A DNA stretch of 64,000 nucleotides from Sphingomonas bisphenolicum (GTDB lineage: Bacteria; Pseudomonadota; Alphaproteobacteria; Sphingomonadales; Sphingomonadaceae). Each line of letters begins with the position of its first letter. Position 1 is the stretch's first letter. The stretch lies in NCBI RefSeq assembly GCF_024349785.1, contig NZ_AP018817.1:3627501-3691500 (forward strand), given 5' to 3'. The position numbers were made by a program, and so were the translations under genes. Positions 8,928 to 64,000 of this stretch are shown here, piece by piece. Under the pieces are notes generated by a model, which was not told the origin of the DNA, made no database searches, and worked only from the letters and a program-made list of their open reading frames with translations.

Positions 8928-8952
8928 CAGCACGCTCTCCGGCCTTTATTTA

Positions 8953-8966: not shown

Positions 8967-9000
8967 TTTCCCCGCTTGGGGTGCTTGAATTTCTATTTGT

Positions 9001-9013: not shown

Positions 9014-9081
9014 GAGGCGGAGCGCGTCAACGCGCCATGCCCAATTTTTGCGTCAGCCATTTCTTGAATCAGGATGCCCCG

Positions 9082-10884: not shown

Positions 10885-10891
10885 TCCTTGT

Positions 10892-10930
10892 AAAAAAGGG
10901 GGCGGCTATCCATCTGAGGCCGCCCCCTTC
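10892..10930 (+). terminator. Rho-independent terminator after the dehydratase gene
   Basis: TAAAAAA, then a perfect 9-bp GC stem (10898-10906 with 10919-10927, 12-base loop) and a short TT. It separates the dehydratase from the aldehyde dehydrogenase group, so the latter is read through weakly or has its own promoter. Confidence 0.75.
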
Positions 10931-11021
10931 CCTGTCATTTCAGCCTGATATGTGCCGCAAACGGGTCCGATCCCGGCGGCATGATCGACCCGCTATTCCA
11001 CCCCCCATTCAGGAGAACATC

Positions 11022-32865: not shown

Positions 32866-34358
32866 CGAGCCTCGTCTTCCAGCAAGGGAGTCGCGCCCTG
32901 TCCGCCGACGAAATTGGGCACGCCCCGCAACACGCCCTGAAAGCCGATCAATGGTTCGCCCAGACGAATGCCATAGCTGCCGATGCGGAACTCACGGATC
33001 GTATCCTCATGCGCACCTGTGCGCTTCTTGATGATCGAAATGGCGCGCCGCACGCGCCCGGAAGCCTCGAAATAACGTAGCAGCACTACGGTGTCGGCCA
33101 GATAGGTCACGTCGACAGGCGCTTTCATGTCACCGACCAGGCCGTGCTGCGCCACTGTCAGGAAGGTCGTCGCCCCCTGTCGGTTCAGATATTGCAGCAA
33201 TTCGTGCATGTGCAGGACCAAAGCATTCTCTTCCGGCATCGCCGCCTGATACCCGTTCAGGCTGTCGATGATGATCGTACGGACCTTGTGCTGTTCGACA
33301 CAGGTACGCACGCGTTGGGAGAACTCCCCAGGGGACAATTCGGCCGCATCCACCTGTTCGATGAAGAGATTGCCGCTATCGACCATGGCCTGCATGTCGA
33401 TGCCCAGCCCGATCGCGCGGTTGAACAACAGGCCGATTTCTTCGTCGAACACGAACATCGCCGCCCGTTCGCCGCGCGCAATCGCCGCCGCGACGAAGAT
33501 GAGGGCAAGCAACGACTTGCCGGTCCCGGCCGGACCCAGGACCAGGACGCTCGATCCCCGTTCAATCCCCCCGCCCAGCAGCGCGTCCAGTGCGGGCGAA
33601 TCGCTCCGCAACACGTCGCGCACGAACTCCGTCTTATGTTCAGCCGACACCAGCCTGGGAAAGACCCGTACGCCGCCGGTATCGATGATGAAATCGTGGA
33701 AACCGCCGCGGAACCGGCGCCCTCTATATTTGATGACGCGCAGCCGCCGCCGCTCGGGCCCATATTCTGGGGACAATTCTTCCAGGCGGATCACGCCATG
33801 CGCGACGCTATGGACCGTCTTGTCGGCAACGTCGGCGGTCAGGTCGTCCAGCATCAGCACCGTAGCGTTCTGCGTCGAGAAGAAATGCTTGAGCGCGAGG
33901 ATCTGACGGCGGTAGCGCAGCGAACTCTGCGCGAGCAGGCGAATTTCCGACAGGCTGTCCAGCACGACCCGGTCGGGCTTCACCCTCTCGAACATTTCGA
34001 AGATACGCCGCGTGGTCTCCCCCAATTCCAGGTCGGACGAATAGAGCAGGCTTTGTTGCTGGTCCTCGTCCAGCAGACTTTCGGGCGGGACCAGTTCGAA
34101 AAGGTCGATACCGGTGAGATCCCAGCCGTGCGACTGTGCGCTGTCGCGCATTTCGTCTTCCGTCTCAGACAGCGTGACATAGAGGCATTTTTCGCCACGC
34201 ATCGCGCCTTCCATCAGGAACTGGGTGGCGATCGTCGTCTTGCCGGTCCCCGGGCTGCCTTCCAGCAGGAAGACCCGGCCGCGCGTCAATCCACCCGCCA
34301 GGATATCGTCCAGGCCCCCAACACCGATGAGAGCAGGTACGGTGGCAGCGTGGGTCAT
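32862..34358 (-). CDS. KaiC-like double RecA ATPase
   Basis: A 498-residue protein with two RecA/KaiC domains: CI with Walker A GSPGTGKTT near 34 and VVLDSLSE as Walker B, CII with GPAGTGKS near 277 and TIIIDSLNGY. KaiC proteins switch phosphorylation state in circadian or timing systems. In CI the usual Glu-Glu pair is Ser-Glu (TLSETED); in CII a DEE is kept. The C-terminus (FQGVLRGVP) is shortened compared with cyanobacterial KaiC and lacks the known Ser/Thr phosphosite pair as far as can be seen. No kaiA or kaiB is present. It overlaps the hybrid kinase gene, suggesting a KaiC-kinase signalling pair. Confidence 0.88.
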   Translation of the reverse strand: MTHAATVPALIGVGGLDDILAGGLTRGRVFLLEGSPGTGKTTIATQFLMEGAMRGEKCLYVTLSETEDEMRDSAQSHGWDLTGIDLFELVPPESLLDEDQQQSLLYSSDLELGETTRRIFEMFERVKPDRVVLDSLSEIRLLAQSSLRYRRQILALKHFFSTQNATVLMLDDLTADVADKTVHSVAHGVIRLEELSPEYGPERRRLRVIKYRGRRFRGGFHDFIIDTGGVRVFPRLVSAEHKTEFVRDVLRSDSPALDALLGGGIERGSSVLVLGPAGTGKSLLALIFVAAAIARGERAAMFVFDEEIGLLFNRAIGLGIDMQAMVDSGNLFIEQVDAAELSPGEFSQRVRTCVEQHKVRTIIIDSLNGYQAAMPEENALVLHMHELLQYLNRQGATTFLTVAQHGLVGDMKAPVDVTYLADTVVLLRYFEASGRVRRAISIIKKRTGAHEDTIREFRIGSYGIRLGEPLIGFQGVLRGVPNFVGGQGATPLLEDEAR

Positions 34359-38218: not shown

Positions 38219-39475
38219 TTGATCATCTACCCTACCGGCATAGCGACCTGCGCGCGCCTGCCCCTGATTATGGCGCTTACCCTATCGACTTTCGCGACGA
38301 CGGGCTGCAGTTCCTTCAGCGCCATGGGACCATCGAGCCGCGATGTCGTCCATGCGGCACAGGCGCCGGATGGAGCGCAGGTCTATCTGATCGATCTTAC
38401 GAAGGACAATGTGAATTCGGCGCAGAACGCCATGAATGGTGCAGGCTTTGCCGACACGATGGGCGGCGCCCTGCCCGTTGGAACCATCATTCATGCCGGC
38501 GATGTACTGAGCATAGCAATCTGGGAAGCTCCGCCCGCCGTTCTTTTCAACGCCACCCCATCCTCAACCCGCAGCATCGGGGAAGGATCGGCGCTGGCGC
38601 AAGGCAATGGCAGCAGCACGGCCCGCCAGTCCAGCTTTCCCGATCAGGTCGTCATTTCCGACGGCACGATCTCCGTGCCATTCGCCGGCCAGATTCCGGT
38701 GGAAGGACGAACCACACGACAGGTTGCGAATGAAATTGCCCGTCGCCTCCGGGGGAAAGCGCATATGCCCCAGGTGGAAGTCGCATTTTCGCGCAACGCG
38801 TCTGCCACCGCAACAATGGTGGGGGAATTCGAGAATAACGGCGTCATCCCGCTGACCGCAAAGGGTGAGCGGGTGCTGGACGCCATCGCCCTGAGCGGCG
38901 GCACCAAGCAGCCCATAAACAAGACCACCATCCAGATCACACGAGCCGGGGTCGCCAGATCTCTACCGCTGGAAACGATCATTCGCGACCCCCGCCAGAA
39001 TGTCGTCCTCGCGCCCGGCGATATCATGTCTGCCTATTTCCAGCCGCTCAGCTTCACCGCCTTGGGCGCAATCGGTCAGAGCAGGGAGGTATCGTTCGAA
39101 TCCACCGGCCTCAGTCTGATCGAGGCATTGGGTCGTGTGGGCGGCCTTCACGAAGATAAGGCCAATCCTGCTGGCGCTTTCCTGTTCCGCTTCGAAGACG
39201 CGCGTGCTCTCGGTTTAGACCCTGCCAATCCAGTCCGCCAAACGGAAAAAGGTCCGGTGCGGGTTGCTGTGGATGCGCAAGGACGAGTGGGCGTCATCTA
39301 TCGCGTGAATTTACGTGATCCGGCAACATTCTTTGCCGCGCAGAACTTCGCGATGCGCGACAAGGACATCCTGTATGTGTCCAATGCGCCGATCGTCGAT
39401 GTACAAAAATTCGTCGGCATTATCTCTTCGACGATCTTCCCGATCATTTCCCTCAATAACGCCATCACCAGATAA
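38219..39475 (+). CDS. Outer-membrane polysaccharide export (OPX) lipoprotein
   Basis: A 418-residue Wza/KpsD/CtrA-class exporter that forms the outer-membrane channel for capsule. After a signal sequence with lipobox-like FATTGC comes the Poly_export domain (AGDVLSIAIWEAP; VISDGTISVPFAGQIPVEG; ARRLRGKAHMPQVEV), then SLBB domains (VVLAPGDIMSAYF, LSLIEALGRVGGL, DKDILYVSNAP) and a C-terminal hydrophobic helix (IISSTIFPIISLNN). The TTG at 38219 is preferred because an internal ATG at 38270 would truncate the signal. It fits the ABC-type exporter at the end of the window. Confidence 0.88.
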   Translation: MIIYPTGIATCARLPLIMALTLSTFATTGCSSFSAMGPSSRDVVHAAQAPDGAQVYLIDLTKDNVNSAQNAMNGAGFADTMGGALPVGTIIHAGDVLSIAIWEAPPAVLFNATPSSTRSIGEGSALAQGNGSSTARQSSFPDQVVISDGTISVPFAGQIPVEGRTTRQVANEIARRLRGKAHMPQVEVAFSRNASATATMVGEFENNGVIPLTAKGERVLDAIALSGGTKQPINKTTIQITRAGVARSLPLETIIRDPRQNVVLAPGDIMSAYFQPLSFTALGAIGQSREVSFESTGLSLIEALGRVGGLHEDKANPAGAFLFRFEDARALGLDPANPVRQTEKGPVRVAVDAQGRVGVIYRVNLRDPATFFAAQNFAMRDKDILYVSNAPIVDVQKFVGIISSTIFPIISLNNAITR

Positions 39476-39607: not shown

Positions 39608-42517
39608 TTACAAGATATTCTGCAGCACCCGTTCCCAACTACATGCCTTCGCCAGTCGCCGCGCTTCCTCCGCCATGGCGTTCAGCCCGCCATCATCCTT
39701 CGCCACCAGCATCGCCGCCAGCGCCTTTTCCAATTCGGCTGCGCTACCGTCATAGACAATACCGGCATCTCCCCCGCCCATGACTTCCCGGATCATGCCG
39801 GCTTCGGTAATCACCGTCGGCACGCCAAAGGTGAGCGCCAGCATCAGCGATCCACTCGTCAAAACGTTGCGATAGGGATAGACGGCGAAATCCGCCGCTT
39901 TCAGAAAAACCTGAAGTTCCGCATCGTCTATATACCGATCGACGATATGGATACGCGTTCTTTCGAACGCGCTCAGCGGCGTAGCTAAATTTTCGATCGG
40001 GCTTTCCGGCGCCGCGCCGGCGATCAGCAACAACGCGTTGGGGCGTTGCGCCAGCACCTTGCGAAACGCCTCAACCAACGTGCCGATGCCTTTATATTTA
40101 CGCACCTGGCCATTGAACAGAATGACGTCATCGGCAGGCGCAAGGCCGAGGTAGGAACGGGCCGCATCTTGCGATACCAAATCGGCATATGCCCCGACAT
40201 AATGACCATGCCTGGCAATCAGCACCTTGTGTCGCGGAATGGGGAACAGGGCCTCGACCTCAGCGATCGAATATTCGCTGTGCAAATGCAATGCATCGGC
40301 CAGTTCCGTCAGCTTTTTGGACAGGTTTACTTCAACTTCGCGATGTTCTGCATCGTGCGATATGACATTGTGAATAGTCCACACGACCTTGCCGCCCAGC
40401 GTCTTGAATTTTTCCAGCTTGGCGAGGAATTCATTCGCGCTGGCGGCAGCTTCCTGCTCGCTCATTCCTGCCTTGAACAGGAAATTGAGCCAATGGAGAT
40501 GGAATATATGCTCTGCCGGGCGTTCGGATATCGTGATCATCTGCAACGCAGCGTCGATCGTCCCGGCGCAGAATTCGGCATCATTGGCATGGGGGGCATA
40601 GAGGAGGCGCTGATAAGGATTGGCCCGGTAATAGGGCCAGAACATAACGAGCGGCCGTCCCTCTGCCCGCTGATACGTAACCCGCCGCGGTTCCTTGGGA
40701 TCAGCGATATGGATATCCCAGAAATGAGCCAAGCCGGATCGCGTCAGTGCTTCGCGCTGCACGCGGTAGGTGTTGGTCGTTTGGAATCCTTCATTGACGT
40801 TGGACGTGTTTTCGCCATGCCAACGACGCTGGTACAAAATCTCGTCGATGTGATGGAATTTACCGACTTCCGACAATTTCAAGAAAATATCATAGTCGAC
40901 CGCGTTGACGATATCCTCGCGAAATTTTTCCGTCCGCTCCCACGCCAGTTTGCGAAACATGCGAAAATGGTGCGCGATGGACGTGATCATCATCTTCTCT
41001 CGCGAGAAGACGGGCCAACTATATTCGTTCTTGAGGAAATTTTCGTCCGCGTCGATGCGTTCGCAAGAGCCATAGCAACAGGCGACGTCCGTATTCTCGT
41101 CCAGGAAATCGGCCAGTCTGCGGACGGCGCCCGGCTTTAGACGATCGTCAGAATCGAGCTGGCCGATATAGATGCCCCGCGCCATGGCGATAGCGCGGTT
41201 GGACGCAAAGCCGATGCCGCCATTTGCTCCGGTTGTCCAGCGCACCCGTGGTTCGTCGCCATAATGGCGTTCCAAAACCCCCAGCGTGTCGTCAGGCGAT
41301 CCGTCATCGGCGATGCAGACTTCCAAATCCTGCATGTCCTGTTCGAGCACGCTGTCGATCGCCCGGCGGATATATTTACCGGCTTTGTAGGCCGGAATGT
41401 AGATGCTGACCTTGGGCACCTCATGCGCGCCATCCGTCTTGCGATCCCAATGGTTGGGGCAAAGCTGAACATAGAGCTTTGCGTCGGCAGCCCCTTGGCC
41501 TTTCTTGGCCGAGAAATCCCGAATGTTTCGGGTGGCGATAGGCTGAAAATAGCAGCCCCTATTATAGAGACGGAAACAAAATTCGCGCCCCGCATGGTAG
41601 GCGCCACCGAACCGAGGCTCGAACAACCCGCCAACATTGCGGAACAAGGTGCTGGTGACAGCAAAATTTAGCCCCAGAACATCGCGAAACGGATAGCGCC
41701 TGTTAACGATGTTCTTGTGGGCGCTGGTGCAAAATGGGGTAGCCCCGGAATCAGCCAGCGGCGGGATCAAAGTCTGCACCACCTGATCCGATATCTGGCC
41801 CATGTGCGCGATCCGCAAAAATGTCATGGGATCAAGATCGATTACGCCACTGGTGAATAGCAGCAGTCGCGTATCGCCGCTGATCCGCCACAACAGCGCG
41901 TTGGCTTCTTCGCTGGGAAACGCAATCGCGTGGAATGTCACATCAAGCCCACGGGGCTTTTTCCACCCTGACGGCTTCTCGCCTAAAATATGAAGCCTTA
42001 TTCGACCGGCATAGCTCTGGGCGGCGATTGAGGCGAGCAGCGAGGGGATGCCTTCTCCCTTCTCATCGACATGAATGATATCGATCGGCAAAGCCGCTCC
42101 AGCGCTGCTGCGCCAATTGGCATATTCTTCGATGTACCGGAAATCGTTACAATTTCCAACCATGTCCGGAAGCGCCAACCCAGATGGATAAGGCTTTGGA
42201 AAGCTTGCGCCGTCCTTGATGGATCGGAAAGGAGGATGGAGTGGTCCGCCGATACCCCGATTATAGTCGGAGGGAATATTGATTTTCCGAACATCATCAT
42301 TGGTCGCGACTCCGTTGATGAGTGTTTCGAAGAACAGGAACAGGTCGCTTTCGATATTATCGTTATATCGGATCGTATCGAGAATCCGATTGGCTTTATA
42401 GCCCTGTCCCAGCTCACGGAGATCAATCGCGGCCAGCGCGCGCGCCCAATGATTTCTTGGGTTGGCGGATATCTGGGTCACCGACCCGGCGATATGAGAC
42501 ATTCTGATCTCCGTCAT
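39608..42517 (-). CDS. Multidomain glycosyltransferase: degenerate GT2, chondroitin-synthase-like GT2, GT4
   Basis: A 969-residue protein with three glycosyltransferase-like parts. Residues ~130-365 look like a worn GT-A domain (ends FCFRLYNRGCYFQPI). Residues ~370-600 are a complete GT2 domain: VSIYIPAYKAGKYI, LEVCIADDGSPDDTL, GQLDSDDRL near 454, EYSWPVFSREKMM, AHHFRMFRKLAW, NAVDYDIFLKLSEVGKFHHI. These match, in order and wording, the second domain of Pasteurella hyaluronan/chondroitin synthases as recalled. Residues ~625-969 are a GT4 domain (HLHWLNFLF, GQVRKYKGIGTLVEAF, GVPTVITEAG). It could therefore add two different sugars in turn. Donors are unknown, but glucuronate is plausible for the middle domain. 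Confidence 0.85.
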   Translation of the reverse strand: MTEIRMSHIAGSVTQISANPRNHWARALAAIDLRELGQGYKANRILDTIRYNDNIESDLFLFFETLINGVATNDDVRKINIPSDYNRGIGGPLHPPFRSIKDGASFPKPYPSGLALPDMVGNCNDFRYIEEYANWRSSAGAALPIDIIHVDEKGEGIPSLLASIAAQSYAGRIRLHILGEKPSGWKKPRGLDVTFHAIAFPSEEANALLWRISGDTRLLLFTSGVIDLDPMTFLRIAHMGQISDQVVQTLIPPLADSGATPFCTSAHKNIVNRRYPFRDVLGLNFAVTSTLFRNVGGLFEPRFGGAYHAGREFCFRLYNRGCYFQPIATRNIRDFSAKKGQGAADAKLYVQLCPNHWDRKTDGAHEVPKVSIYIPAYKAGKYIRRAIDSVLEQDMQDLEVCIADDGSPDDTLGVLERHYGDEPRVRWTTGANGGIGFASNRAIAMARGIYIGQLDSDDRLKPGAVRRLADFLDENTDVACCYGSCERIDADENFLKNEYSWPVFSREKMMITSIAHHFRMFRKLAWERTEKFREDIVNAVDYDIFLKLSEVGKFHHIDEILYQRRWHGENTSNVNEGFQTTNTYRVQREALTRSGLAHFWDIHIADPKEPRRVTYQRAEGRPLVMFWPYYRANPYQRLLYAPHANDAEFCAGTIDAALQMITISERPAEHIFHLHWLNFLFKAGMSEQEAAASANEFLAKLEKFKTLGGKVVWTIHNVISHDAEHREVEVNLSKKLTELADALHLHSEYSIAEVEALFPIPRHKVLIARHGHYVGAYADLVSQDAARSYLGLAPADDVILFNGQVRKYKGIGTLVEAFRKVLAQRPNALLLIAGAAPESPIENLATPLSAFERTRIHIVDRYIDDAELQVFLKAADFAVYPYRNVLTSGSLMLALTFGVPTVITEAGMIREVMGGGDAGIVYDGSAAELEKALAAMLVAKDDGGLNAMAEEARRLAKACSWERVLQNIL

Positions 42518-42551: not shown

Positions 42552-43202
42552 TTATTTTAAAATGGGCAAATCAGGGACATGATCATAGTCCACCTTATCC
42601 GAACTAAATGTAGCGTGCGTACATAGTTCGAGCAAAAGGTCTGTCGTCCATTCAGGCCATTCCTGCGGCTCAATATGAAAGACCGCCATACGCCCTATTA
42701 TGTCCGAAGGCTTCAAAAGCGCTTCGACAGCATGATATGCTTTACGATCGGCATAATCGTCAAAGAGAACGGTCATCGGTTGCTTGGCACGAAGACAAGC
42801 GTTGACCAGACAGGCCGCCCGGAAACGGCCATCGATTAACACGACTTCGGGATGCCGGAAAAAATTTTCTGTCCAGATGGACGTCGGGTACCGATAGAAT
42901 TTACGCCAGGAACTGTCGTCCTTGGCGCGTCCCCATGCGCCCGTTTCGCCGATATCGACATGATAGATGATGACCGGCGACGGCAGGTCGGCCTCGTCGA
43001 AGCGGCGCTGCAGTGACAGTGCCCATTGACGGTCCGTCTCGACGCTGAAAATGAGCTTCCCCGCCGCGCTGCCCCCCAGCACGGTGGAACCACCCGATCC
43101 ATATTCGAGGATGACGCGCGCCTTATCATAGGTCTCCCGCAAGAATTCCGCTTCCATGGACGGAAGCGTCAATGCGGGCCAGCCTCCCTCTATCGCGGTC
43201 AT
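42552..43202 (-). CDS. SAM-methyltransferase-like Rossmann protein
   Basis: A 216-residue protein. A motif-I-like loop (LEYGSGGST), an acidic strand end (FSVETD) and VLIDGRF suggest a class I AdoMet-dependent Rossmann fold, although it could use another nucleotide ligand. The ATG at 43202 overlaps the stop of the large coiled-coil gene as TGATG, so the two are coupled. The frame extends upstream to 43277 within the other gene, which is not used. It may modify the polysaccharide or its lipid end. Confidence 0.65.
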   Translation of the reverse strand: MTAIEGGWPALTLPSMEAEFLRETYDKARVILEYGSGGSTVLGGSAAGKLIFSVETDRQWALSLQRRFDEADLPSPVIIYHVDIGETGAWGRAKDDSSWRKFYRYPTSIWTENFFRHPEVVLIDGRFRAACLVNACLRAKQPMTVLFDDYADRKAYHAVEALLKPSDIIGRMAVFHIEPQEWPEWTTDLLLELCTHATFSSDKVDYDHVPDLPILK

Positions 43203-46200
43203 CAGGAAGCACCCTGCGCAAGCGCAGCGTTCCAGAGAGTAAGCCGTGAAGCGCGCTGATATCTTGGGCTTTCCCAATTGGAATTGGCAGGCTCCTGAGT
43301 CAGATCGACGGTTGACCGCTGCTGAAAATAATCAATTTCCGCGTTCAACGCTTGGGTAATGGTATCGAACTGGATCAGGGCTTCGCGCAACGCTTCCGTC
43401 TCCTGAATCTGCAGCGCCAACTCGCCCTGGATCGTGGCAACCATGCTGTCGCGTGTGCTCAATGCGTCGTGGAGGGCCAACTCAAGAGCTTCCAGTTCAC
43501 GATAGTCGCTGCCGGTTGCGGCTGGCCGATGGGCATCTATTTCCGCCTGCGCCTCTTCAGCAGCGACGAGCTTGTCCTGAACGAAGCGCAACTCCATCGA
43601 AAGCGCCTGGATAACATTTTCGCTTTGCTCCATCGCCTGCAGGAGCGCCCTCGTCCCTTCGAGATGCCTCGCCAGTTCCTCGCGCGTCGCGGCCTCTTGG
43701 GCATCCCGCTCCGCGAGCATATCATCAAATTCGGCAATCCTGGCCTGATAGGCTTGCACCTCCGCATTCATTTGCTGAGCCGCCGCCAATTGGTCTTTAA
43801 GCTCGCCAAACTCGACCTTCAAAGACAAGAGGAGGTTCTCGCTATGCGCAAGGTCTTCCAAAAGAATCTTTGTCCCCTTAAGCTGACGCGAAAATTCCTC
43901 GCGTGCGGCGAGCTCTTGCGACTGCATATCCTCGGCGGCCTTGGTCAATTCCGCCTGCAGCCTGGCATTGTCGTCTCGGTGCTTTGCCAGATCGGCTTCG
44001 AAACCGCCGATCGAGTCCGCATATTGCATGGACGCCGCCTGGAAAGATGCCTGCCCTTCTTCCATCGCCTGGGCGTGCGCGGCTCTTTCAACGTCCCGCT
44101 GCTCGCTCAAAATCGTGCAGCGCTGCTGAGCCTCGGCCAGTTCCCCGGACAGGCGCACCAACTCTCCTTCATGGGTCGCAATCAGCGTTCTCAACTGGGA
44201 AACCGTGGATATCGCCGACTGTTGCGCCTCTTCAAGCTGGGCATATGCCATCTCGCGACCCGCACGGTCGGCCTGGAGCGTCGCCGACTCTTGCGACAGA
44301 CGCTCTACATCCGCGCCCCGCTCGTCAAACGCCGCCTTGAGGTCAGCCAATGCAGAGCGATCGGTCTCGCGTGCGGCCTCCAGCGCCTGGAGCGCCTCCG
44401 CATCGGCCTGCTTGCTCTCCAGCAGTTCGTCCCGCTCGGAGCGCAGGGTGTTCGACTCTTGCGACAGGCGCTCGACCTCCGCGATCCTATCATCAAACGC
44501 CGCCTTGAGATCGGACAATGCAGAGCGATCGGTCTCGCGCGCAGCCTCCAGCGCCTGGAGCGCCGTCGCGTCGGCCTGTTTGCTCTCCAGCAATTCGTCC
44601 CGCTCGGCACGCAGCGTCTTCGACTCTTGCGACAGGCGCTCGATATCCGCGCCCCGCCCATCAAACGCCCCCTTGAGCTCGGCCAAGGCAGAGCGATCGG
44701 TTTCGCGCGCAGCTTCCAGCGCCTGGAGCGCCGTCGCGTCGGCCTGCTGACGTTCCAGCAGGTCGTCCCGCTCGGCACGAAGCGTTTTCGACTCTTGCGA
44801 CAGGCGCTCGACATCCGCGCTCCGGTCATCAAACGCCGCCTTGAGGTCGACCGACGCAGAACGATCGGCCTCGCGCGCGGCCTCCAGCGCCTGTAGCGCC
44901 TTCGCGTCGGCCTGTTGACGTTCCAGCAGGTCGTCCCGCTCGGCGTTCAACAGCGTCAAATTCTGTTTGAGCTGCGCAATCTGTCCACCGCGCTCGGCAA
45001 ACAGCTTCTCCAGCTCCAGCAATTTGGACTGGTCGGCCTGGCGTGATTGGTGCGCTTCCCGGGCCTTGGCTTCCTCCGCCTTTCGATGACTTTCCAGATC
45101 ATCGCGCTCAGTCCGTAAAGCCGTCAACTCCTCCGACAGGCGGTCAATTTGCCCCTTGCGCCTTACCGCCACCGTCTTGAGTTCGGTAAATTCTGATTGC
45201 GCCTTTTCATACTCATTCTGCAACTGCAGGATCGAGGCGGCGCCCTCATCCAGTTGCACTTGCAGCCGGCCGGTTTCGTCGCGCGCTTTTTTGAGACGAT
45301 ATTTCAGACGGTCCGCCTCGATTCTCCGCATTTCCTCGGCGATTTGAAGATCGAAGGACTTGGCCTGTAAATTGGCGATCTGCCGGTGACGCCCCTCATA
45401 TTGGGCGCGGCTGTCTTTCAGTTGCTCCGCAAGCTTTTCATATTCTGCCTTCAGCTCTTCGAAATGGCGACCGGCCGAGGAAGCCCGCTCTTCCTGCGAC
45501 TGGCTGGACATTTCGTAATAATTCGCTGCGCCCAAACGGGTGAACATCTCTATGAATGCCTGGCGCGCCTGATGCTCCGGATGATCCTCGGTCAGCGATA
45601 CCAGGTCGCCTAGCTGTTCAATCACATTCTTCCCGTAGAGCAGGACGGTCATCCCCTCCCCGCCCGGAAGTTGAATAGTGGGCATACGCGCCGACATTCC
45701 GTCGATGAAAGCGGCCACATCCCCCTCTGCCTGCGCCGTTCCGTGGACGAGAATGATGCTTTCATTGGACAGCTTGCCCAGCCATTTTTCCTGGATCGTT
45801 TCGATGACTGTAGCCGCGGTCAAGCCCGCCCGGGCAGTCGCGACCATGTCGATCAAAAGAAAATCGATGGAAGCGGCGGCGAAATGCCTGTCGCCTCGCC
45901 CGATGCCATCGGTCAGGATGCGGGAAAAATGACCGTATAAATCCGTATTACGGGAAACCAGCTTTGCTGGCGCGTCGACGACATCGCCCTCCCCGGCCCA
46001 GGTTCCCACAGCGTCGCAGCGGGCGTCGGGCTGCACCCGGTGAAGGCATTGACATGCGGCCATATAGGCAACGCCCTCGCCCACGCCGATTTCGACATAT
46101 TGGCGCGGACGCGAAAGCTCCAACACCCAGAACAGAAAGGGGATATGCCACAATATGACATCATTTCTGGCATATTGCGGCTGCCAAAAAAGCGCTTGGA

Positions 46201-46372
46201 CGCGACTGGATCGCGGCATGACGGCGTTAAGGGGGGCCGACAGCAGGCCCTCTTCAGTTGTTACCTTCCTCATCATCACCCCAGCGCCCGAATCAGCTTG
46301 CCAAGAATAGCCACCATTCCTCCACCGCTTGTCAATATTATCGGCCCAATCTGGCCGTCTCGCTTCCGTCAA
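43202..46372 (-). CDS. Methyltransferase-like domain fused to a very long coiled coil with tandem repeats
   Basis: A 1056-residue protein. Residues ~70-265 resemble a class I methyltransferase of the Methyltransf_24 type (YVEIGVGEGVAYMAA, IDFLLIDM, SIILVHGT). From ~300 to ~1035 it is one heptad-rich coiled coil, very rich in E, A, L, R and Q, with four tandem 56-residue units at residues 491-714 (LQALEAARETDRSAL ... LRAERDELL). Eight heptads per unit keep the coil in phase. The start is a TTG at 46372 with AAGG upstream. No membrane span is seen. It may be a scaffold or chain-length ruler for polymer synthesis. Confidence 0.8.
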   Translation of the reverse strand: MTEARRPDWADNIDKRWRNGGYSWQADSGAGVMMRKVTTEEGLLSAPLNAVMPRSSRVQALFWQPQYARNDVILWHIPFLFWVLELSRPRQYVEIGVGEGVAYMAACQCLHRVQPDARCDAVGTWAGEGDVVDAPAKLVSRNTDLYGHFSRILTDGIGRGDRHFAAASIDFLLIDMVATARAGLTAATVIETIQEKWLGKLSNESIILVHGTAQAEGDVAAFIDGMSARMPTIQLPGGEGMTVLLYGKNVIEQLGDLVSLTEDHPEHQARQAFIEMFTRLGAANYYEMSSQSQEERASSAGRHFEELKAEYEKLAEQLKDSRAQYEGRHRQIANLQAKSFDLQIAEEMRRIEADRLKYRLKKARDETGRLQVQLDEGAASILQLQNEYEKAQSEFTELKTVAVRRKGQIDRLSEELTALRTERDDLESHRKAEEAKAREAHQSRQADQSKLLELEKLFAERGGQIAQLKQNLTLLNAERDDLLERQQADAKALQALEAAREADRSASVDLKAAFDDRSADVERLSQESKTLRAERDDLLERQQADATALQALEAARETDRSALAELKGAFDGRGADIERLSQESKTLRAERDELLESKQADATALQALEAARETDRSALSDLKAAFDDRIAEVERLSQESNTLRSERDELLESKQADAEALQALEAARETDRSALADLKAAFDERGADVERLSQESATLQADRAGREMAYAQLEEAQQSAISTVSQLRTLIATHEGELVRLSGELAEAQQRCTILSEQRDVERAAHAQAMEEGQASFQAASMQYADSIGGFEADLAKHRDDNARLQAELTKAAEDMQSQELAAREEFSRQLKGTKILLEDLAHSENLLLSLKVEFGELKDQLAAAQQMNAEVQAYQARIAEFDDMLAERDAQEAATREELARHLEGTRALLQAMEQSENVIQALSMELRFVQDKLVAAEEAQAEIDAHRPAATGSDYRELEALELALHDALSTRDSMVATIQGELALQIQETEALREALIQFDTITQALNAEIDYFQQRSTVDLTQEPANSNWESPRYQRASRLTLWNAALAQGAS
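44231..44902. repeat. Four tandem 168-bp repeats inside the coiled-coil gene
   Basis: Unit boundaries at 44902, 44734, 44566, 44398 (minus strand). Each 168-bp unit encodes 56 residues, eight heptads. The units are closely similar; the last is the most divergent at its end. Confidence 0.8.
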
Positions 46373-46387: not shown

Positions 46388-47335
46388 CTATACCGGAACC
46401 GCTTCGATCAGACCAAGGTCGACCAAATCCGCCGTCCCCCTGTAACGCCGACTATCAGGATACATGAAGCTGAATCCTGAGAAACGTCTAATCGCCTCAT
46501 CATAGACGCGATATTCGTAACTGCCTTGCCAATATTGCCCTCGCGCAATCGCATCCGAAATATGCGCAAGCGCATCGCCATCGAACTTGAAATGCAACAG
46601 CGCGATCCAGCATGGGTCGTCCCCCAGAAGCGGCGGATCGACATAATGCGGGCTGACAAGAGTTTCATCTGCCGTCAAGCGAAACAGCGGATATTTCGTC
46701 ATTTCCGGCATGAAATCAGGCTTGATGCGCGACAAGGTCCGCTGCCTGGGACCGCCCATTCGGCTGGTCAGCAGTTCCAGCCGGTTATCGCGATACCCTT
46801 CCGGATCGAAAAAGGGATAGGCCTGCAAAAAGGATTGGTCGGACCGACGATGGTCGATCGCCAATGGCTTGTCGCTATACATGTCCAGCAAAAATCCCCG
46901 CACCCGCCGCAGGCCCGATCGTTCCGCAGCGGCAGCCAGTGATTGCAGATTCTTTGTCCCGTGAAAGACGGCATGCTCGTCCGCATCCGCGAGCATGTAC
47001 CAGCGGTCGCCATATTCTTCCACGAGGCGCATGATCCACCCGTGCTTCGCCTTAGCACTGAAAGGATCCAGCATCTCGAACAGATCGACATCGGCCTGGC
47101 TCGCCAGGAATTCACGCGAGCCATCGGTCGATCCGTTATCGACGAACAGGAAATGTGCCGCGCCCAGCCGCCGATAATGGGCCAGAAAATAGGGGAGTCG
47201 TCGAAGTTCGTTGCGGACAATGCAAATGACGATGGGTTGCCCGGGCCGATCTGCGGCCAGCCTGGAAACGCCGACGCGAGTCAATCTGGCCGATCGAGCC
47301 AAGGCGCGAATTTCGTCCGCTTCCGTCGTCATCAT
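46388..47335 (-). CDS. GT2-like glycosyltransferase (Glyco_tranf_2_4 type)
   Basis: A 315-residue protein. IVICIVRNELRRLPYFLAHYRRLGAAHFLFVDNGSTDGS is the diagnostic start of the Glyco_tranf_2_4/GT92-like group, followed by MLADADEHAVF as the metal-binding DxD equivalent and, further on, ALLHFKFDGDAL. This group transfers galactose, glucose or similar sugars to cell-surface glycans, with the donor uncertain. ATG at 47335 or 47332. It is followed after 15 bp by the long coiled-coil gene, with which it probably forms a transcript. Confidence 0.8.
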   Translation of the reverse strand: MMTTEADEIRALARSARLTRVGVSRLAADRPGQPIVICIVRNELRRLPYFLAHYRRLGAAHFLFVDNGSTDGSREFLASQADVDLFEMLDPFSAKAKHGWIMRLVEEYGDRWYMLADADEHAVFHGTKNLQSLAAAAERSGLRRVRGFLLDMYSDKPLAIDHRRSDQSFLQAYPFFDPEGYRDNRLELLTSRMGGPRQRTLSRIKPDFMPEMTKYPLFRLTADETLVSPHYVDPPLLGDDPCWIALLHFKFDGDALAHISDAIARGQYWQGSYEYRVYDEAIRRFSGFSFMYPDSRRYRGTADLVDLGLIEAVPV

Positions 47336-50413: not shown

Positions 50414-51568
50414 TCACATGTCCATCGCCTTGTCGATAGCCACGCCCTGTCCGTGCGCCCATAAGCTGCGCTGGCTCCACGGCATGGCAGCATCGCTCCA
50501 AAAAGGCGCTTCGCTGGGCAAACCAAGAGGCAGGAAGGCTGTTGAGCATAGATACAGGCTTCCGGTCGAGATATAGCCTTCCGCCATGTTGGGTTGCGAT
50601 CCATTAAGGCCCAACCGCAGCCAGCCTTCTTGATCAAAGTTTTCCGGCGCATCGAGGGTCCGTCGAATAACCGCTTCAAGCGCACAACGAACCTGCGCCG
50701 GCGGCAATGCAGCCGGCAACTCGCCGTGCAGCGCCAGTTGCGCCAGCGGCTGGAAGGCAGCGCAACGATAGGCAAGCGATCGCCCAATGGGCGGGAAGGA
50801 CCCATCAGGCCCTATCAGTCGTTCCAAAACCACGGCATATCGCGCCATGCGGCTGGAATGCGCGACGCGCATCGACTGCCAATGCGGATTGACAGCACCG
50901 ACGGCTGAAAGAATATCGCTCAGCATGGGCTGAATGACATATCCATTATAATAATCCCACCGCAGATGGGGGCCATCCTTGTAGATTCCATCTCCGGCAT
51001 ACCAAAGCTCATGTTGACGCAGCGCATAGTCGATGCGAACCGGATCCCAGGGTTCGCCGATTTTCGCCAGCATGGCCTCGATTGTCGCGGAAAACAAAAG
51101 CCAGTTATTGTAATAGGGTTCAATCTTTCTCGCCTGATGCAATGCGTCCACCAGATTGCGCTGGATATCCGGCGACAGGCTTGTCCACAGCGCATGGGGC
51201 GCCCGCAACACGGCCTGAGCGAGAAATGCAGCGTCCACCAATGGCTGCAATCCGTCTGAAAAGTTCAGTTTATGCGGGCCATCGGGGTCGACGCTGGCTC
51301 CAATCAGGTTGTGGACATCCGAGATATCTATCGCCCCGACGGCCCCGTCCAGCATCTCTCGTTCGAGCAGGGCGGACAGTCCGCACAGAAGCCGCCCCAC
51401 CGCCTCCAGGGCACTAAATTGCCTTCTATCTTTTTTGCCTGGCGCAACCTCAACTGGCATTTGAGCAGCCAGTCCGCCCCTTTTGGCGGCGACCAAAACC
51501 GGCGCCGAGATTTTTACAATCAAAGCTTTCATTCGATGGTGGCTTTCGCCCCGAGCTTCTTCGATCAC
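50414..51568 (-). CDS. DUF2264-domain protein
   Basis: A 384-residue protein with an all-helical fold of the DUF2264 family. Diagnostic segments are FSALEAVGRLLCGLS, QPLVDAAFLAQAVL, YYNNWLLFSATIEAML and DGIYKDGPHLRWDYYNGYVIQPML, then GRSLAYRCAAFQPLAQLAL and LNMAEGYISTGSLYLCSTAFLPLGLP-like endings. These proteins are thought to act on uronate-containing glycans, but no activity is established. The start is a GTG at 51568, with GGAGGG six bases upstream and a GTGA overlap with the preceding frame; the frame could also begin at 51616. Confidence 0.82.
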   Translation of the reverse strand: MIEEARGESHHRMKALIVKISAPVLVAAKRGGLAAQMPVEVAPGKKDRRQFSALEAVGRLLCGLSALLEREMLDGAVGAIDISDVHNLIGASVDPDGPHKLNFSDGLQPLVDAAFLAQAVLRAPHALWTSLSPDIQRNLVDALHQARKIEPYYNNWLLFSATIEAMLAKIGEPWDPVRIDYALRQHELWYAGDGIYKDGPHLRWDYYNGYVIQPMLSDILSAVGAVNPHWQSMRVAHSSRMARYAVVLERLIGPDGSFPPIGRSLAYRCAAFQPLAQLALHGELPAALPPAQVRCALEAVIRRTLDAPENFDQEGWLRLGLNGSQPNMAEGYISTGSLYLCSTAFLPLGLPSEAPFWSDAAMPWSQRSLWAHGQGVAIDKAMDM

Positions 51569-52020
51569 GTCATGCCCTCCATTCGATGAGGAAAGTCGGA
51601 CGAGTTTGGCCGGCACCCGTTCAAGCAGACACCGAAAGGAGGGCGCGCGCCCTTCGACGCAAGCCGCTCCTGTCGATCTTGAATTGAACCAAGCGAATAG
51701 CCAGCGCCCGAACCCGACATTCTGTCAGGTCGCTTCAGCTTGGCGGCTTCCTCACGCCAGTCTTCCGTAAGACCGTATCTATTACAGCACAACGCCACAA
51801 AAACGCGATCTTCCGGAGAAGAGAATATTATCCCCAACCTACTCGCGAGAAACCCTTCCCGCCTTCGGCAGTCTCTCGTGATCCGCAAGCGCCGAGCCTG
51901 CGCCATACTGGCGATGGCCGGACGTCGATGCGGGTCATGCGCGTCGGCGACCTGATGATGACAGCCTGCGATCGCGCCATCGGAGGCCGACGCCGCGGCC
52001 GGGCCCGTCTCTGCAGCCAT
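51565..52020 (-). CDS. Hypothetical 151-residue protein in an overlapping gene chain
   Basis: The frame begins at an ATG overlapping the upstream hydrolase stop (TGATG) and ends overlapping the GTG of the DUF2264 gene (GTGA). These two exact couplings are the only support. The sequence has no recognised family, is rich in R, S, G and A, and has no signal or membrane span. It could instead be an untranslated spacer or a decayed gene. Confidence 0.35.
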   Translation of the reverse strand: MAAETGPAAASASDGAIAGCHHQVADAHDPHRRPAIASMAQARRLRITRDCRRREGFLASRLGIIFSSPEDRVFVALCCNRYGLTEDWREEAAKLKRPDRMSGSGAGYSLGSIQDRQERLASKGARPPFGVCLNGCRPNSSDFPHRMEGMT

Positions 52021-56082: not shown

Positions 56083-56313
56083 ATGTCACGGGATAACGGG
56101 AATGGGTGCGAGCCCCGACAAGCCTGTCCTGTGGCCCTGAATAGCTGCGCCCCCTTTTTGGCGCCCGCCTGATCGTGGGGCGCTGCATGAAAGGCGGAAC
56201 GGCAAGAAACAGCAAGTGAGTCACACGCCAATCGACGGGAATGAGGTGCGGCAATGCAGGCGATGCATCCGCCTCGTTCGAATGCTGAGTTAACATTGCG
56301 GAAGCAGCAGAAA

Positions 56314-59300
56314 ATGCATATTTGGATAGACGGTCAGTGCCTTCAAACGGCCAGCAATGTTCGCGGCATCGGACGCTATGTCAGTGAACTGCTGCGTGCG
56401 CTGCACCTGCGGACCGACGTTCAGCTTACTGTGTCGTTCAATGCGAATTTGAAGCATCAGGCTGTCGCGGCCCGAACCTATCTGGCCGACACGCTGCCGA
56501 ACGTTCGCATAGAAACATGGTATGGGACGGCCTCGGCGGGCGAGATTGCGCATGGCTACACGCCACAGCGCATCGCCGATGACCGCATCTTGGCGGCGCA
56601 TATCAATGCCATTGCGCCGGATGTGGCGCTATGCCCCAGTTCCTTCGAGGGTTTTGAGGACAACAGTTCCCCCCTCGTCACCCTTGACGATGTCGAATGT
56701 CCCACCGCCTGTATATTTCATGATGCGATCCCGCACCGCTTCCCGGAACGCTATTTCCATCACCCCAATATCGCACCGGCCTATTATCGCCGATTTTATT
56801 CTCTGCCGAAATATGACTTCGTCTTGTGCAATTCCGATTTTACGCAGGACGAATATCGGGAACTGTTCGACAAGGATAATTGCGTTACGATCGGCGCCGG
56901 TCTGCCCGCAGATTTCGAGGAACTGCTCGCGGCCGACCTGACGAACGTCAAGCTGCCAAAGGCGCTGACGGCCTATATTCTCTATGTCGGCGGTTTGGAC
57001 TGGCGCAAGAATGTCGGCATGCTCGTCAAAGCGCTGGCCCGTATCCCGGATGTTCAAAGCGGCATGATGCAATTCGTGCTCGCGGGCGATCACAGCGAAC
57101 CGGAACTTGCGCCACTCCGCAACCTGTGGGCGGCCAATGGCCTGCCTGATGACGGCCTGGTCGTCACCGGATGGGTATCCGATGCCCAACTCGTCAAACT
57201 GTATCGAAACGCCAGCATAGCCGTTCAGCCCTCGCTGATGGAAGGCTTCGGCTTGGCCGCGCTGGAAGCCATGGCCTCCGGCTGCCCCTTCATTGCTGCG
57301 CGCGGCGGTGCGGTCGGCGAAGTGGTTGCCAGGGAAGATCTGCTGTTCGATGGCCAGACGCCGGACGAACTCGCCAAGCTGCTGAGCCACATCCTGAAGG
57401 ATACGTCCTTTCGGCAGGATGCCGTCGCCTTCGGCAAGCAACGCACGAAGGAGTTCAGCTGGGAAAAATCCGCGGAGATCACGGTATCGGCGTTGCGCGC
57501 CATGCTGGAAGAAAAGCTGGTATCAGCGCCTTCCCGCGCGCCGGCGATAGAGGCTCGCCCCGCGAACGCGGCGCCACCTCGACTGATCATGGACGTGACC
57601 TCGACGGCGCAAAGCACTTTGCTTTCCGGTATTCAGCGGGTCATCCATCGTCTCACGACGGCGTTGGTCAACAGCGATACGCCTTCAGTATCGGAGACTG
57701 TTCTCAGCTATGCCGATGATTCATCGGGATGGTATCGCATGAAGAACCTCAGCAATGCAGCGATCACAAGAAACCCGCTCGATAGCCTGCCATACTCGGC
57801 CGACGACAGCTATTTCCTGATCGACAGTTCCTGGGGATATCCGGAAATTCAGGGGCCGCGCCTGCTGAATGCCATGGCGATGGGCCAAACCGTGGTCCAC
57901 GGCATTCACGATATCGGGCCGCTGACCAAACCGGGCATGACGATCGAAAGTATGCCGGCTGTCTTCAGACGATGGTTCGAATTCATATTGGGCCACTCCA
58001 CCGGAATTATCTGCGTTTCGCGGGCCGTCGCGGACGAGGTTTACGCCTTGCTGGAAGCGATCGAGCTGCCGCGACCGATGAACGTGGGATATATCCGTCT
58101 GGGCGCCGATTTCAGTGCCGCGCCCGCGGATCCGGAATGGCTGGACTTTCTGGGCGACCGACCGACTTTCATGATGGTCGGGACGATCGAACCGCGCAAG
58201 GGGCACAGTATCGTCCTCGACGCATTTGAACGACTGTGGTCCCGCGGCGTCGATGTCAACCTGATGCTGATCGGCAAGCCGGGCTGGAACACCCGGATTC
58301 TGTACGAGCGCATCAAGGTCCATCCGGAGGCGGAACGCCGCCTTTTCCTGCGAGAAGAGGTCCGCGACGGGCAGTTGCGCGCTGCCTATAGCGCTGTCAA
58401 CGCCTTGATCATGGCATCCTATCTGGAAGGATTTGGCTTGCCCGTGGTCGAAGCAGGGCATTTCGGTTGCCCGGTGATCCTCAGCGACATCCCGGTCTTT
58501 CGAGAGGTGGGGCAAGGGGCGCCGGTCGCCCAATATTTCGAGATGGGCAATGCAGGCGCCCTGGCGCAGGTCGTCGAGGAGATGGCAGGACAGGACCGCC
58601 TGGCCTATCCCCAGGACGGAACAGCTTGGCCCACTTGGGAAGGAACCGCGCAGGAGGTGCGGGACATCATATTGGGCGACAACTGGTATCGCCGTTATCG
58701 CCCACGCAATCTCTCGCCCAATGCGGTGCCGGCGCTGATCGGCAACATCCGCATGCGTCAGCCGCTGGATCTGCCTGACCGCAAGCACAGCTTCCGGTAT
58801 GTAGAAGGACCGATGGTGTCCGACGATGGCCGCCGGCTGCAGTTCATCATTGCCTTGCGTAACGAGAGTTCGAAATTGTGGTCGAGCAATGGCCTGCCGG
58901 GCAAGGGCATGGAGATCAATATCGGCTCCCACATCGTTGCCGAAGATGGAGCGATGCTGGACTATGAAAATCCGCGCACGCCCATACCATTCGTGCTGCC
59001 GCCGGGCGATGAACTCTATCTCCCCATTTACGTCAATGCGGACTGGCTCGCGCGGGGGGCACGCTACGTCGATGTGGAGGTCGTGCAGGAAGCGGTGGAT
59101 TGGTTCGGCACCACATTCCGCCTCGATCTGACGCAGCCGCCCGTCAGCCCCGGCAAAGACCGGGACGGTTCGATTGCGGACTTAAGGCCGATGCTGTTGC
59201 GCGAACCTTTTTCGGTTCCCGGCCAATCGGGCAAATTTCTCCTGCTAGGCTTGATGAACGCAACCCATCACGGCATCGACATGTCGGATCATGCATCCGG

Positions 59301-59562
59301 CGACGTCCTTCGTATCGCCATGCTGGACGACTCATCACGCTCGATCGGCGATTGCAAAATCGTCTCGAGCTTTTCCCGACTGGACCCTGCCGGCTATGGG
59401 CTCCTTACCGTGCAATGTCCGGCACGCGCTTTCGTCCAGGCGGATAGTTTGGCGATCCTGCTGGGCAACCAGGATCAGGTCGAATGGAGACTTAAGCTGG
59501 TGTCCGGGAAGATCAGCCGCGTATCGCAGGTAGAGCCCATTCCCGCCGATCAGCCAGCCTGA
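56314..59562 (+). CDS. Tandem GT4 glycosyltransferase with C-terminal beta domains
   Basis: A 1082-residue protein. The first GT4 domain is residues ~1-400 (WIDGQCLQTASNVRGIGRYVSELLRALH; YVGGLDWRKNVGMLVKAL; EGFGLAALEAMASGCPFIAA). The second is ~420-800 (IMDVTSTAQSTLLSGIQRVIHRL; MMVGTIEPRKGHSIVLDAF; EGFGLPVVEAGHFGCPVILSD). Both keep the E-x7-E motif. Residues ~830-1082 are two beta-rich regions, the first with VQEAVDWFGTTFRL, a pattern often seen attached to glycosyltransferases. The tandem GT4 layout is that of WbdA-like mannan polymerases. Start is ATG 56314, not 56254. Confidence 0.85.
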   Translation: MHIWIDGQCLQTASNVRGIGRYVSELLRALHLRTDVQLTVSFNANLKHQAVAARTYLADTLPNVRIETWYGTASAGEIAHGYTPQRIADDRILAAHINAIAPDVALCPSSFEGFEDNSSPLVTLDDVECPTACIFHDAIPHRFPERYFHHPNIAPAYYRRFYSLPKYDFVLCNSDFTQDEYRELFDKDNCVTIGAGLPADFEELLAADLTNVKLPKALTAYILYVGGLDWRKNVGMLVKALARIPDVQSGMMQFVLAGDHSEPELAPLRNLWAANGLPDDGLVVTGWVSDAQLVKLYRNASIAVQPSLMEGFGLAALEAMASGCPFIAARGGAVGEVVAREDLLFDGQTPDELAKLLSHILKDTSFRQDAVAFGKQRTKEFSWEKSAEITVSALRAMLEEKLVSAPSRAPAIEARPANAAPPRLIMDVTSTAQSTLLSGIQRVIHRLTTALVNSDTPSVSETVLSYADDSSGWYRMKNLSNAAITRNPLDSLPYSADDSYFLIDSSWGYPEIQGPRLLNAMAMGQTVVHGIHDIGPLTKPGMTIESMPAVFRRWFEFILGHSTGIICVSRAVADEVYALLEAIELPRPMNVGYIRLGADFSAAPADPEWLDFLGDRPTFMMVGTIEPRKGHSIVLDAFERLWSRGVDVNLMLIGKPGWNTRILYERIKVHPEAERRLFLREEVRDGQLRAAYSAVNALIMASYLEGFGLPVVEAGHFGCPVILSDIPVFREVGQGAPVAQYFEMGNAGALAQVVEEMAGQDRLAYPQDGTAWPTWEGTAQEVRDIILGDNWYRRYRPRNLSPNAVPALIGNIRMRQPLDLPDRKHSFRYVEGPMVSDDGRRLQFIIALRNESSKLWSSNGLPGKGMEINIGSHIVAEDGAMLDYENPRTPIPFVLPPGDELYLPIYVNADWLARGARYVDVEVVQEAVDWFGTTFRLDLTQPPVSPGKDRDGSIADLRPMLLREPFSVPGQSGKFLLLGLMNATHHGIDMSDHASGDVLRIAMLDDSSRSIGDCKIVSSFSRLDPAGYGLLTVQCPARAFVQADSLAILLGNQDQVEWRLKLVSGKISRVSQVEPIPADQPA

Positions 59563-62775: not shown

Positions 62776-63435
62776 TCAATGCGTATGGGTCACTTTGTGA
62801 TAATATTCATAACCCGCTTCTACCTCGTCGAACAATTCCAAGCGACCGCCGGAAATGACGCCCATCTTGTTGCAATGGTCGCGTATGAAGGAATTATCGT
62901 GAGATACGACCAGGAACGCGCGGTCAGCGCGTTTCTCGAACAGCTCGACATGGCATTTCTCATGAAAGCGCTGATCGCCGACGGCCGTGATCTCATCGAT
63001 CAGGAAACAGTCGAACTCAATCACCATGGAGACGGCAAAGGCCAGGCGCGCCCGCATACCCGAAGAATATGTCTTGACCGGCTCCCGCAGATACCGCCCT
63101 AGCTCGGAGAAATCATCCACATAGTCGATTTTGTCACGATAATCGACGCCGTACACGCGACAGATAAACCGCAGATTATCCAGCCCCGTCAGCGAACTCT
63201 GAAACGCGCCGCCGAACGCCAATGGCCAGGATATGCTCATATCCCATTGGATTTTGCCCGATGTCGGCTGCTCGACGCCGCCCAACAAACGCACCAGTGT
63301 GGACTTGCCGGCACCGTTGCGGCCCAGAATGCCGACTTTCTCGCCTTTCTCGACACGCAGATTTATTTTGTCGAGCACCGTCACTAGCCCGGTGGAGGTG
63401 CGATAGCTTTTCGTTACGTCCCGCAACTCAATCAC
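62776..63435 (-). CDS. kpsT: Capsule/polysaccharide ABC exporter, ATP-binding subunit
   Basis: A 219-residue ATPase of the KpsT/Wzt type. Walker A GRNGAGKST near residue 42, Q-loop GAFQ, signature YSSGMRAR, Walker B CFLIDEI and H-loop VSHD. It lacks the long C-terminal carbohydrate-binding domain of Wzt O9a-type proteins, so export need not depend on a modified chain end read by the ATPase. The start is chosen as GTG at 63435 because GGAGGGG sits eight bases upstream and the overlap with the permease stop (GTGATTGA) is conventional; a GTG at 63444 is possible. Confidence 0.88.
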   Translation of the reverse strand: MIELRDVTKSYRTSTGLVTVLDKINLRVEKGEKVGILGRNGAGKSTLVRLLGGVEQPTSGKIQWDMSISWPLAFGGAFQSSLTGLDNLRFICRVYGVDYRDKIDYVDDFSELGRYLREPVKTYSSGMRARLAFAVSMVIEFDCFLIDEITAVGDQRFHEKCHVELFEKRADRAFLVVSHDNSFIRDHCNKMGVISGGRLELFDEVEAGYEYYHKVTHTH

Positions 63436-64000
63436 TGAGCACACCCCTCCGTGCGATTACTCTGATCTGCAAAAGGCCGAAGGCCGTCAAAATCAAATTG
63501 ACCAGCAGGACGTAGCCAAGATTGTGAATGGCCACGATCTTGGACCCGAAATAGCCTTCTCTGATATATTCGGTGCAATGGACCATGGGGATCCAGCCCA
63601 CGACTTTTTGGAAAGCCGGCGGCGCCGCACTCATCAAAAAGCCAGCCCCGGATAATGGGAACATCAGGTAAGAGGCCGGATGCCAGAGCTTGTCGACCAG
63701 TTCGGAATGCTCCGCAAGCGTCCCCAACGTAATCGCGAGCGCCGCACCGAACCAGGCGAGCAATGTCCATCCGATGATGATTTTGAAGACATCTTCAGGT
63801 AAATCGATCAAGCCGACATAATTGAACGCAAGAGTCAGCACCAGGAAGGACCCGGTTGCGCCCATCGCCTCCAGGATGAGCCGCGACATGAAGATATCGA
63901 TGATCCGCACGTTGCGATGATACATCAGCGATGCATTGGGCTGAATGGCGCCGATGCATCGACCAGGCATGTTACGCCAGAGAAGAACACTGGAATAGCC
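63428..64000 (-). CDS. kpsM: Capsule ABC exporter permease, C-terminal part (cut by window end)
   Basis: At least 190 residues of an ABC-2 type permease. It includes LLWRNMPGRCIGAIQPNASLMYHRNVRIIDIF, the KpsM hallmark, and several spans (LEAMGATGSFLVLTLAFNYVG, IIIGWTLLAWFGAALAITLG). The frame is open to the window edge. With kpsT it forms the inner-membrane exporter of a group 2/3-like capsule; the OPX protein at 38.2 kb is the likely outer-membrane partner. Confidence 0.88.
   Translation of the reverse strand, partial: GYSSVLLWRNMPGRCIGAIQPNASLMYHRNVRIIDIFMSRLILEAMGATGSFLVLTLAFNYVGLIDLPEDVFKIIIGWTLLAWFGAALAITLGTLAEHSELVDKLWHPASYLMFPLSGAGFLMSAAPPAFQKVVGWIPMVHCTEYIREGYFGSKIVAIHNLGYVLLVNLILTAFGLLQIRVIARRGVLSD

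Follow-up and report, generated by a model that had tools for sequence, protein, structure and literature searches.

A coiled-coil protein with a degenerate methyltransferase-like head in a Kps-type capsule locus of Sphingomonas bisphenolicum: a possible spacer or ruler subunit

What, if anything, measures the length of a capsule chain made by an ABC transporter-dependent system? A 2025 review calls for more work on whether, and by what factor, this length is regulated (PMC12220298). The question is raised by a locus in the window, as we call the whole stretch of 64,000 nucleotides analysed here (S. bisphenolicum, GCF_024349785.1, contig NZ_AP018817.1, positions 3,627,501 to 3,691,500). It encodes the MT-coil protein, a methyltransferase-like head followed by a very long coiled coil. 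A first-pass annotation had compared this protein to WbdD of Escherichia coli O9a and read it as a possible chain-length ruler. We tentatively favour the view that it serves the assembly complex of a Kps-type capsule as a spacer or ruler subunit. The gene and its parts are as follows (aa, amino acids; ORF, open reading frame).

43202..46276, minus strand: MT-coil protein, 1024 aa, from the ORF and the start of protein P0002
45626..46198, minus strand: methyltransferase-like head, residues ~59–249, predicted COMT-type class I fold, motif residues lost
43298..45580, minus strand: coiled-coil region, residues 265–1025, from a COILS-type scan, a proline-free stretch and helix in the full-length model
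44270..44941, minus strand: four tandem units of 168 bp (56 residues), residues 478–701, from repeat finding and dN/dS

The ORF at 43202–46372, for which the first-pass annotation gave no strand, is genuine. It stays open on the minus strand up to 46372, where there is a TTG start, and the plus strand from 43202 is interrupted by stops. The likely start is the ATG at 46276, which matches the beginning of the near-identical database protein P0002 (1024 aa). No Pfam domain, hence no kinase domain, was found in the protein, and what follows the head is coil. A COILS-type scan assigns 89% of residues 265–949 to coil (mean 35%, maximum 52% in 10 shuffles), and these 685 residues contain no proline. 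The scan was applied after a plain Fourier test had given a weak 3.5-residue hydropathy period that lay within the shuffles; both are reported. The full-length model, of low confidence (predicted local distance difference test 55.6, predicted template modelling score 0.26) and used for helix content only, is nearly all helix from residue 293. Tandem Repeats Finder gives a sole array at the gene (period 168, 4.0 copies, 86% matches), and in the protein the period-56 tandem score reaches 124, whereas 60 shuffles preserving the composition at each heptad position gave at most 5.8. The ratio of nonsynonymous to synonymous substitution rates (dN/dS) between units is 0.23–0.39, so the protein sequence of the array is constrained. 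The ORF, the head-plus-coil anatomy, the 56-residue repeats and the lack of a kinase domain, all read from the letters in the first-pass annotation, thus hold.

Is the head still a methyltransferase? Structure prediction, which the first-pass annotation had suggested as a check, gives it a class I O-methyltransferase (COMT) fold. In a tree of heads (35 rows), the 13 rows labelled degenerate fall together with Roseivivax, whose head is also without the methyltransferase motifs, on the same side of a branch supported at 99/95; this side is a clade only if the root falls on the opposite side of the branch. The group was delimited by inspecting motifs, with Roseivivax included after the tree, so the motif counts describe it and are no test of it. 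There are near-duplicates both among its 14 heads (that of the window equals that of P0002, and L010 closely resembles L031) and among the 21 others (three E. coli rows). At the motif positions, here named HIDG, AVDTW, HD and so on, the AVDTW aspartate is kept in 1/14 degenerate heads and 19/21 others, the first HIDG histidine in 0/14 and 20/21, the second in 0/14 and 19/21, and the HD aspartate in 1/14 and 19/21. The window's head is among those that lost these four residues. The degenerate heads retain the HIDG aspartate in 8/14, the HD histidine in 7/14 and the motif I glutamate in 5/14; structural positions are retained throughout or nearly so (motif I glycine 14/14, ESW tryptophan and KLS serine 13/14 each). 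Two of the 21 others, P0129 and P0130, also miss several motif residues. The motif decay that the first-pass annotation had called partial is therefore real, and since its group lost the methyltransferase motif residues, the window's head is probably a pseudoenzyme.

This bears on a terminator of the WbdD type, in which the head would methylate the chain end and stop growth at a length set by the coil. The order of domains is that of WbdD minus the kinase, and the WbdD of serotype O8 is a methyltransferase only (PMC3482155). Enterobacterial kps-type heads keep their motifs (120/120 by regular expression; here and below, the enterobacterial survey is the best 120 of 6,830 matches, ranked by head, and covers close relatives only), and a methyltransferase–coil protein of E. 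coli O101/O162 has been proposed as a ruler (PMC13168486). In the window's protein and its group, however, the four residues are kept in 0–1 of 14 heads, and the ABC ATPase of the locus has no domain for reading the chain end. Self-termination of this kind is not supported for the window's protein and appears very improbable. Sequence searches for WbdD relatives are weak tests. With the head, a search for WbdD or any solved methyltransferase gave a chance match only; with the E. coli head-coil protein it gave no match, and an alignment profile found coiled-coil proteins only. WbdD is not among the fold matches listed for the head, which excludes nothing.

Does the length of the coil change between alleles? 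Plasmids of Rhodobacterales and kps loci of E. coli encode homologous head-coil proteins; the window's head is 30.6% identical over 232 aa (E 9e-30) to that of E. coli group 3 kps. In the closest-relative pair, P0003 (967 aa) and P0004 (953 aa, with its start cut off), 897/897 aligned residues are the same, and what sets the two apart is one 56-residue unit. Between the window and P0002 the number of units is equal, and 15 of the 18 differences lie inside the array, which makes up 22% of the length (binomial p 5e-8, with sites made non-independent by gene conversion); the array is thus the variable part of the gene. The enterobacterial survey holds 830 pairs at ≥97% identity, 297 of them with an internal insertion or deletion (indel). 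These pairs are non-independent events, and some of the proteins lie on short contigs, where repeat collapse is possible. All 306 internal indels of at least 32 aa fall in the coil, with sizes of 32, 43, 53, 64, 77, 96, 106 and 149 residues, and there are at least four basic block sizes (32, 43, 53 and 77). The head has 39 indels, each of 3 aa and every one involving P0063. Near-identical alleles thus differ by whole blocks of coil, the kind of gain and loss that the first-pass annotation had foreseen. Its expectation that heptad phase is kept stands for the 56-residue unit (8 × 7) and not for the relatives' blocks of 32, 43 and 53, which are not multiples of seven; a rule of heptad-only indels is rejected. 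Every indel size fits 7a + 11b, a pattern of little weight because 25 of the 40 sizes from 20 to 59 fit it anyway. The 77-residue block repeats its neighbour perfectly (77/77), and the 32-residue block is a near copy (28/32). For the blocks of 53 and 43 residues the best matches to the neighbours are 12/53 and 16/43, and the idea that all blocks are tandem copies is not borne out.

The head-coil gene is found in 17/5,426 complete E. coli genome assemblies. The match spans 816 codons in three of the 17, 912 in nine and 880 in one, and four more distant members are annotated at 840, 887, 917 and 846 aa. Fifteen E. coli regions were chosen for holding a head-coil homologue (regions H23, H27 and H30 of the 17 genomes were left out of those compared). 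In all 15 the gene lies directly after kpsDMTE, and KpsE is annotated at 1203 bp in 15/15, so length variation is not general to the locus.

The other end of the E. coli protein varies in its own way. Heads are nearly constant, and the last 95 residues tend to vary with the next glycosyltransferase (GT) gene. L041 and L044 have a common C-terminal type (96%) and next gene (97%); the next gene is 80–84% identical for the other pairs with L041, L047 aside. L047 has a head 94–96% shared with the other loci and a C-terminus only 53–55% shared, and its next gene encodes a different GT-type protein (27–31% identity). In L047 the C-terminus and next gene differ jointly, as though swapped as one piece. 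Clustered substitutions have been described in the last 263 bp of the methyltransferase gene, at the same position, in two clusters compared (PMC10433991). The pattern fits docking of the neighbouring transferase by the C-terminus, and linkage alone would give the same. By eye, the E. coli C-terminus (P0007, residues ~720–800) holds two short alike stretches, FDELWYLHRYPEVA... and FDTRWYLQTYADVA...; the window's protein has no stretches of this type. At the end of the coil, 119/120 of the enterobacterial proteins and several alphaproteobacterial ones carry an SWRITAPLR-like motif (residue 699 in P0007, 960 in P0008 and 481 in P0009), possibly, as a guess, an amphipathic membrane helix. The motif was not found in the window's protein by regular expression.

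How might such a protein act? We propose that the coil, ~100 nm long if fully extended (685 residues × 0.15 nm), would hold the methyltransferase-like head at one end and a GT-docking C-terminus at the other. The head, which has probably ceased to methylate, may bind or position the chain end or a partner such as MT2, the methyltransferase-like product of the overlapping gene. Recombination between 168-bp units would add or remove whole blocks and so change the spacing, and with it, if the ruler idea holds, the length of the chain. The spacer or ruler would act on a shared part of the assembly line, an arrangement favoured because in E. coli one protein serves different downstream gene sets.

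In-frame indels confined to the coil fit both this ruler or spacer and a generic scaffold, whose coil tethers GTs to the exporter at an exact length that is neutral, its blocks coming and going by repeat recombination. This length-neutral scaffold is the main rival, close behind the ruler or spacer, and several observations lean towards it or weigh otherwise against a ruler. Many lengths coexist, with seven coil lengths among 14 related E. coli loci, and length variation is not expected to be critical according to PMC13171606. An identical 912-aa E. coli protein (L032 and L038 vs L042) stands with two different downstream gene sets, so neither head nor length is polymer-specific there. ABC transporters of capsule systems are considered to recognise the lipid end (PMC12220298), and export would then need no termination signal. 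Collapse of near-identical units during assembly might account for the difference between P0003 and P0004. The C-terminus and the next gene are not always inherited together, L032 and L042 having identical C-termini and next genes only 89% identical, and where they are, the cause may be plain linkage because the genes are ~2 bp apart. Finally, no repeat above shuffles was found in seven members of the family (the second gene of L021, L022, L025, L028, L030, L033 and P0133). What the scaffold does not readily accommodate is the constraint on the unit sequence and the existence of coil-length rulers in analogous O-antigen systems, where coiled-coil length helps to set chain size (PMC11231755). 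On balance, we retain the ruler or spacer as the tentative choice. The ruler model becomes testable through natural alleles whose differences are whole coil blocks and hardly anything more.

In which kind of locus does the protein sit? The other genes considered are listed below.

38219..39475, plus strand: OPX / KpsD-like outer-membrane export protein (Poly_export and SLBB)
39608..42517, minus strand: GT2-GT4 two-module glycosyltransferase, 969 aa, with a 40.6% identical homologue in a Sulfitobacter locus
42552..43202, minus strand: MT2, stand-alone methyltransferase-like protein, 216 aa from the ATG at 43202 (PDB 3cvo, E 3e-48)
46388..47335, minus strand: GT family 2-like protein (Glyco_tranf_2_4), directly upstream of the MT-coil gene
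56254..59562, plus strand: tandem GT4 protein, 1102 aa
60690..62753, minus strand: TPR-GT2 protein, with a homologue (37.5% over 272 aa) in an E. coli kps locus
62776..63444, minus strand: KpsT-like ABC ATPase, 222 aa, without Wzt C-terminal domain
63428..64000, minus strand: KpsM-like permease (ABC2_membrane), continuing past the end of the window

The GT2-like gene, the MT-coil gene, MT2 and the GT2-GT4 gene form a tight run on the minus strand. Past the end of the window, and so out of view of the first-pass annotation, the same contig carries a KpsE-like gene, rml-type genes and two KpsC/KpsS-family genes (Capsule_synth). The KpsE-like protein has a weak Wzz match (19.9 bits, cut-off 25.5) and, over 375 aa, is 27% identical to KpsE from an E. 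coli locus. OPX, KpsM, KpsT, KpsE-like and KpsC/KpsS-family proteins are thus all present together. From this gene content, the short ATPase and the two KpsC/KpsS-family proteins above all, the locus is a Kps-type, oligo-Kdo, ABC capsule locus. The first-pass annotation was right about a polysaccharide assembly locus with an ABC exporter and a tandem GT4 protein, and about an ATPase without a Wzt-like domain (222 aa, no Wzt_C); its phosphomannose isomerase is a weak match (68 bits, below the 116-bit cut-off). The O9a/WbdD setting that it proposed gives way to the capsule type, and an O9a-like mannan O-antigen locus is ruled out by the lack of Wzt_C and by the two KpsC/KpsS-family proteins that follow. 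The MT-coil gene lies ~16 kb from kpsT and not directly after kpsE. Within the capsule locus there is also a DUF2264 protein (window 50414–51616); elsewhere in the window, a KaiC-type ATPase (32862–34358) adjoins a hybrid histidine kinase with a receiver domain (30853–32865).

Could MT2 supply what the head has lost? Its start overlaps the stop codon of the MT-coil gene (TGATG). The overlap suits a terminator split over two proteins, in which MT2 is the active methyltransferase, placed by the dead head, and the pair works like one WbdD; this would overlap with the ruler or spacer. MT2 homologues (45–53%) lie near degenerate heads in Jannaschia, two Leisingera, Paracoccus fistulariae and the genome G018, and in Jannaschia and P. 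fistulariae they adjoin the head-coil gene. Against such a pair, no MT2 match was found on the degenerate-head plasmids of Sulfitobacter S223, Leisingera NJS201 and Roseivivax (plasmids searched, chromosomes not), and MT2 is present without any MT-coil match in G660, G810 and a plasmid of Paracoccus seriniphilus. A rule by which MT2 strictly accompanies the degenerate head is rejected; the association is suggestive only, and the split terminator seems unlikely. We consider equally doubtful the fullest version of our proposal, in which a dead-headed coil ruler sets the Kps capsule length, in-frame repeat recombination resets it stepwise, and MT2 caps in trans. Were it true, the ruler and cap would form a genetic length switch for the capsule. 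With the dead-headed group, some members of which have a separate methyltransferase-like gene alongside, measuring could be studied apart from capping; WbdD joins the two.

Is the gene simply a coil-rich passenger in decay, with no role in the polymer? Its head is degenerate, and the close form looks rare: of 94 genomes in the genus only that of the window has it (G018 holds distant forms), and at E 1e-20 the same is true of 397 in the family. No relative turned up in genome contigs with two peptide patterns taken from alignment A1. Set against this are a frame open across 1,024 codons, constrained repeats, and head-coil relatives in like loci of other orders, which make decay the least credible of the readings. 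Among plasmids, 44 records matched, and head type was assigned for the 14 regions examined. Repeat units are 35 residues long in the Jannaschia relative and 56 in the Leisingera one; a possible kinship of the latter with the window's units has a local score of 80, close to the maximum of 74 in 50 shuffles. L024 and L035 have no long proline-free stretch usable for the repeat test, and repeats in the family are common, not universal. The genome G018 (L021) has two tandem head-coil genes (8182–9903 and 9994–11823), both with degenerate heads, and an MT2 homologue ~5 kb away. Fusions of head, coil and GT with intact heads occur in the alphaproteobacterial loci L022–L026 and L029, which are probable O-antigen-type counterparts. 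The ATPase ORF is 447–520 aa in 5/5 of L023–L026 and L029, and the two of these fusion-locus ATPases that were scanned both carry Wzt_C; in the fusion-type loci L022 and L027 the ATPase was not found. With short ATPases in Kps-type loci and Wzt_C ATPases in fusion loci, the head-coil plan occurs with both transporter classes.

Among known systems, the nearest are the putative methyltransferases of E. coli group 3 kps clusters (PMC13171606), which have in common with the window's protein a homologous head, a long coil, a Kps-type locus and allelic length variation. Judged by gene order and description, the E. coli proteins compared here are those meant in PMC13171606 and in PMC10433991, where the methyltransferase is the first region-2 gene. 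Unlike the window's protein, with its degenerate head, 56-residue units and MT2 alongside, they keep the motifs and have a C-terminal region that is not seen in it. Their coil-length variation is already published, without a ruler role (PMC13171606), and in searches of the open-licence literature, which omits most subscription journals, we found no title, abstract opening or passage that proposes these capsule head-coil proteins as rulers. The protein 3cvo, methyltransferase-like and of unknown function, is a homologue of the neighbour MT2 only and is not related to the MT-coil protein. ORF6 of Klebsiella O7 resembles the latter by description in its methyltransferase, coil and polysaccharide locus, and differs in holding a kinase-like domain and GT2 modules in one chain (PMC11231755). 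The E. coli O101/O162 protein, likewise compared by description, combines a methyltransferase with a coil, and its disruption alters chain length; it serves an O-antigen with end methylation, unlike the capsule locus here (PMC13168486). WbdD of E. coli O9a and Klebsiella O3 shares the N-terminal methyltransferase-type domain followed by a coil, and its systems also have ABC transporter-dependent glycan assembly and a tandem GT4 protein in the locus. Compared with WbdD, the window's protein has no kinase, has lost the motif residues and stands beside a capsule-type exporter without Wzt C-terminal domain, and its coil stretch is more than twice as long as the whole C-terminal domain of WbdD (residues 460–708, PMC3482155).

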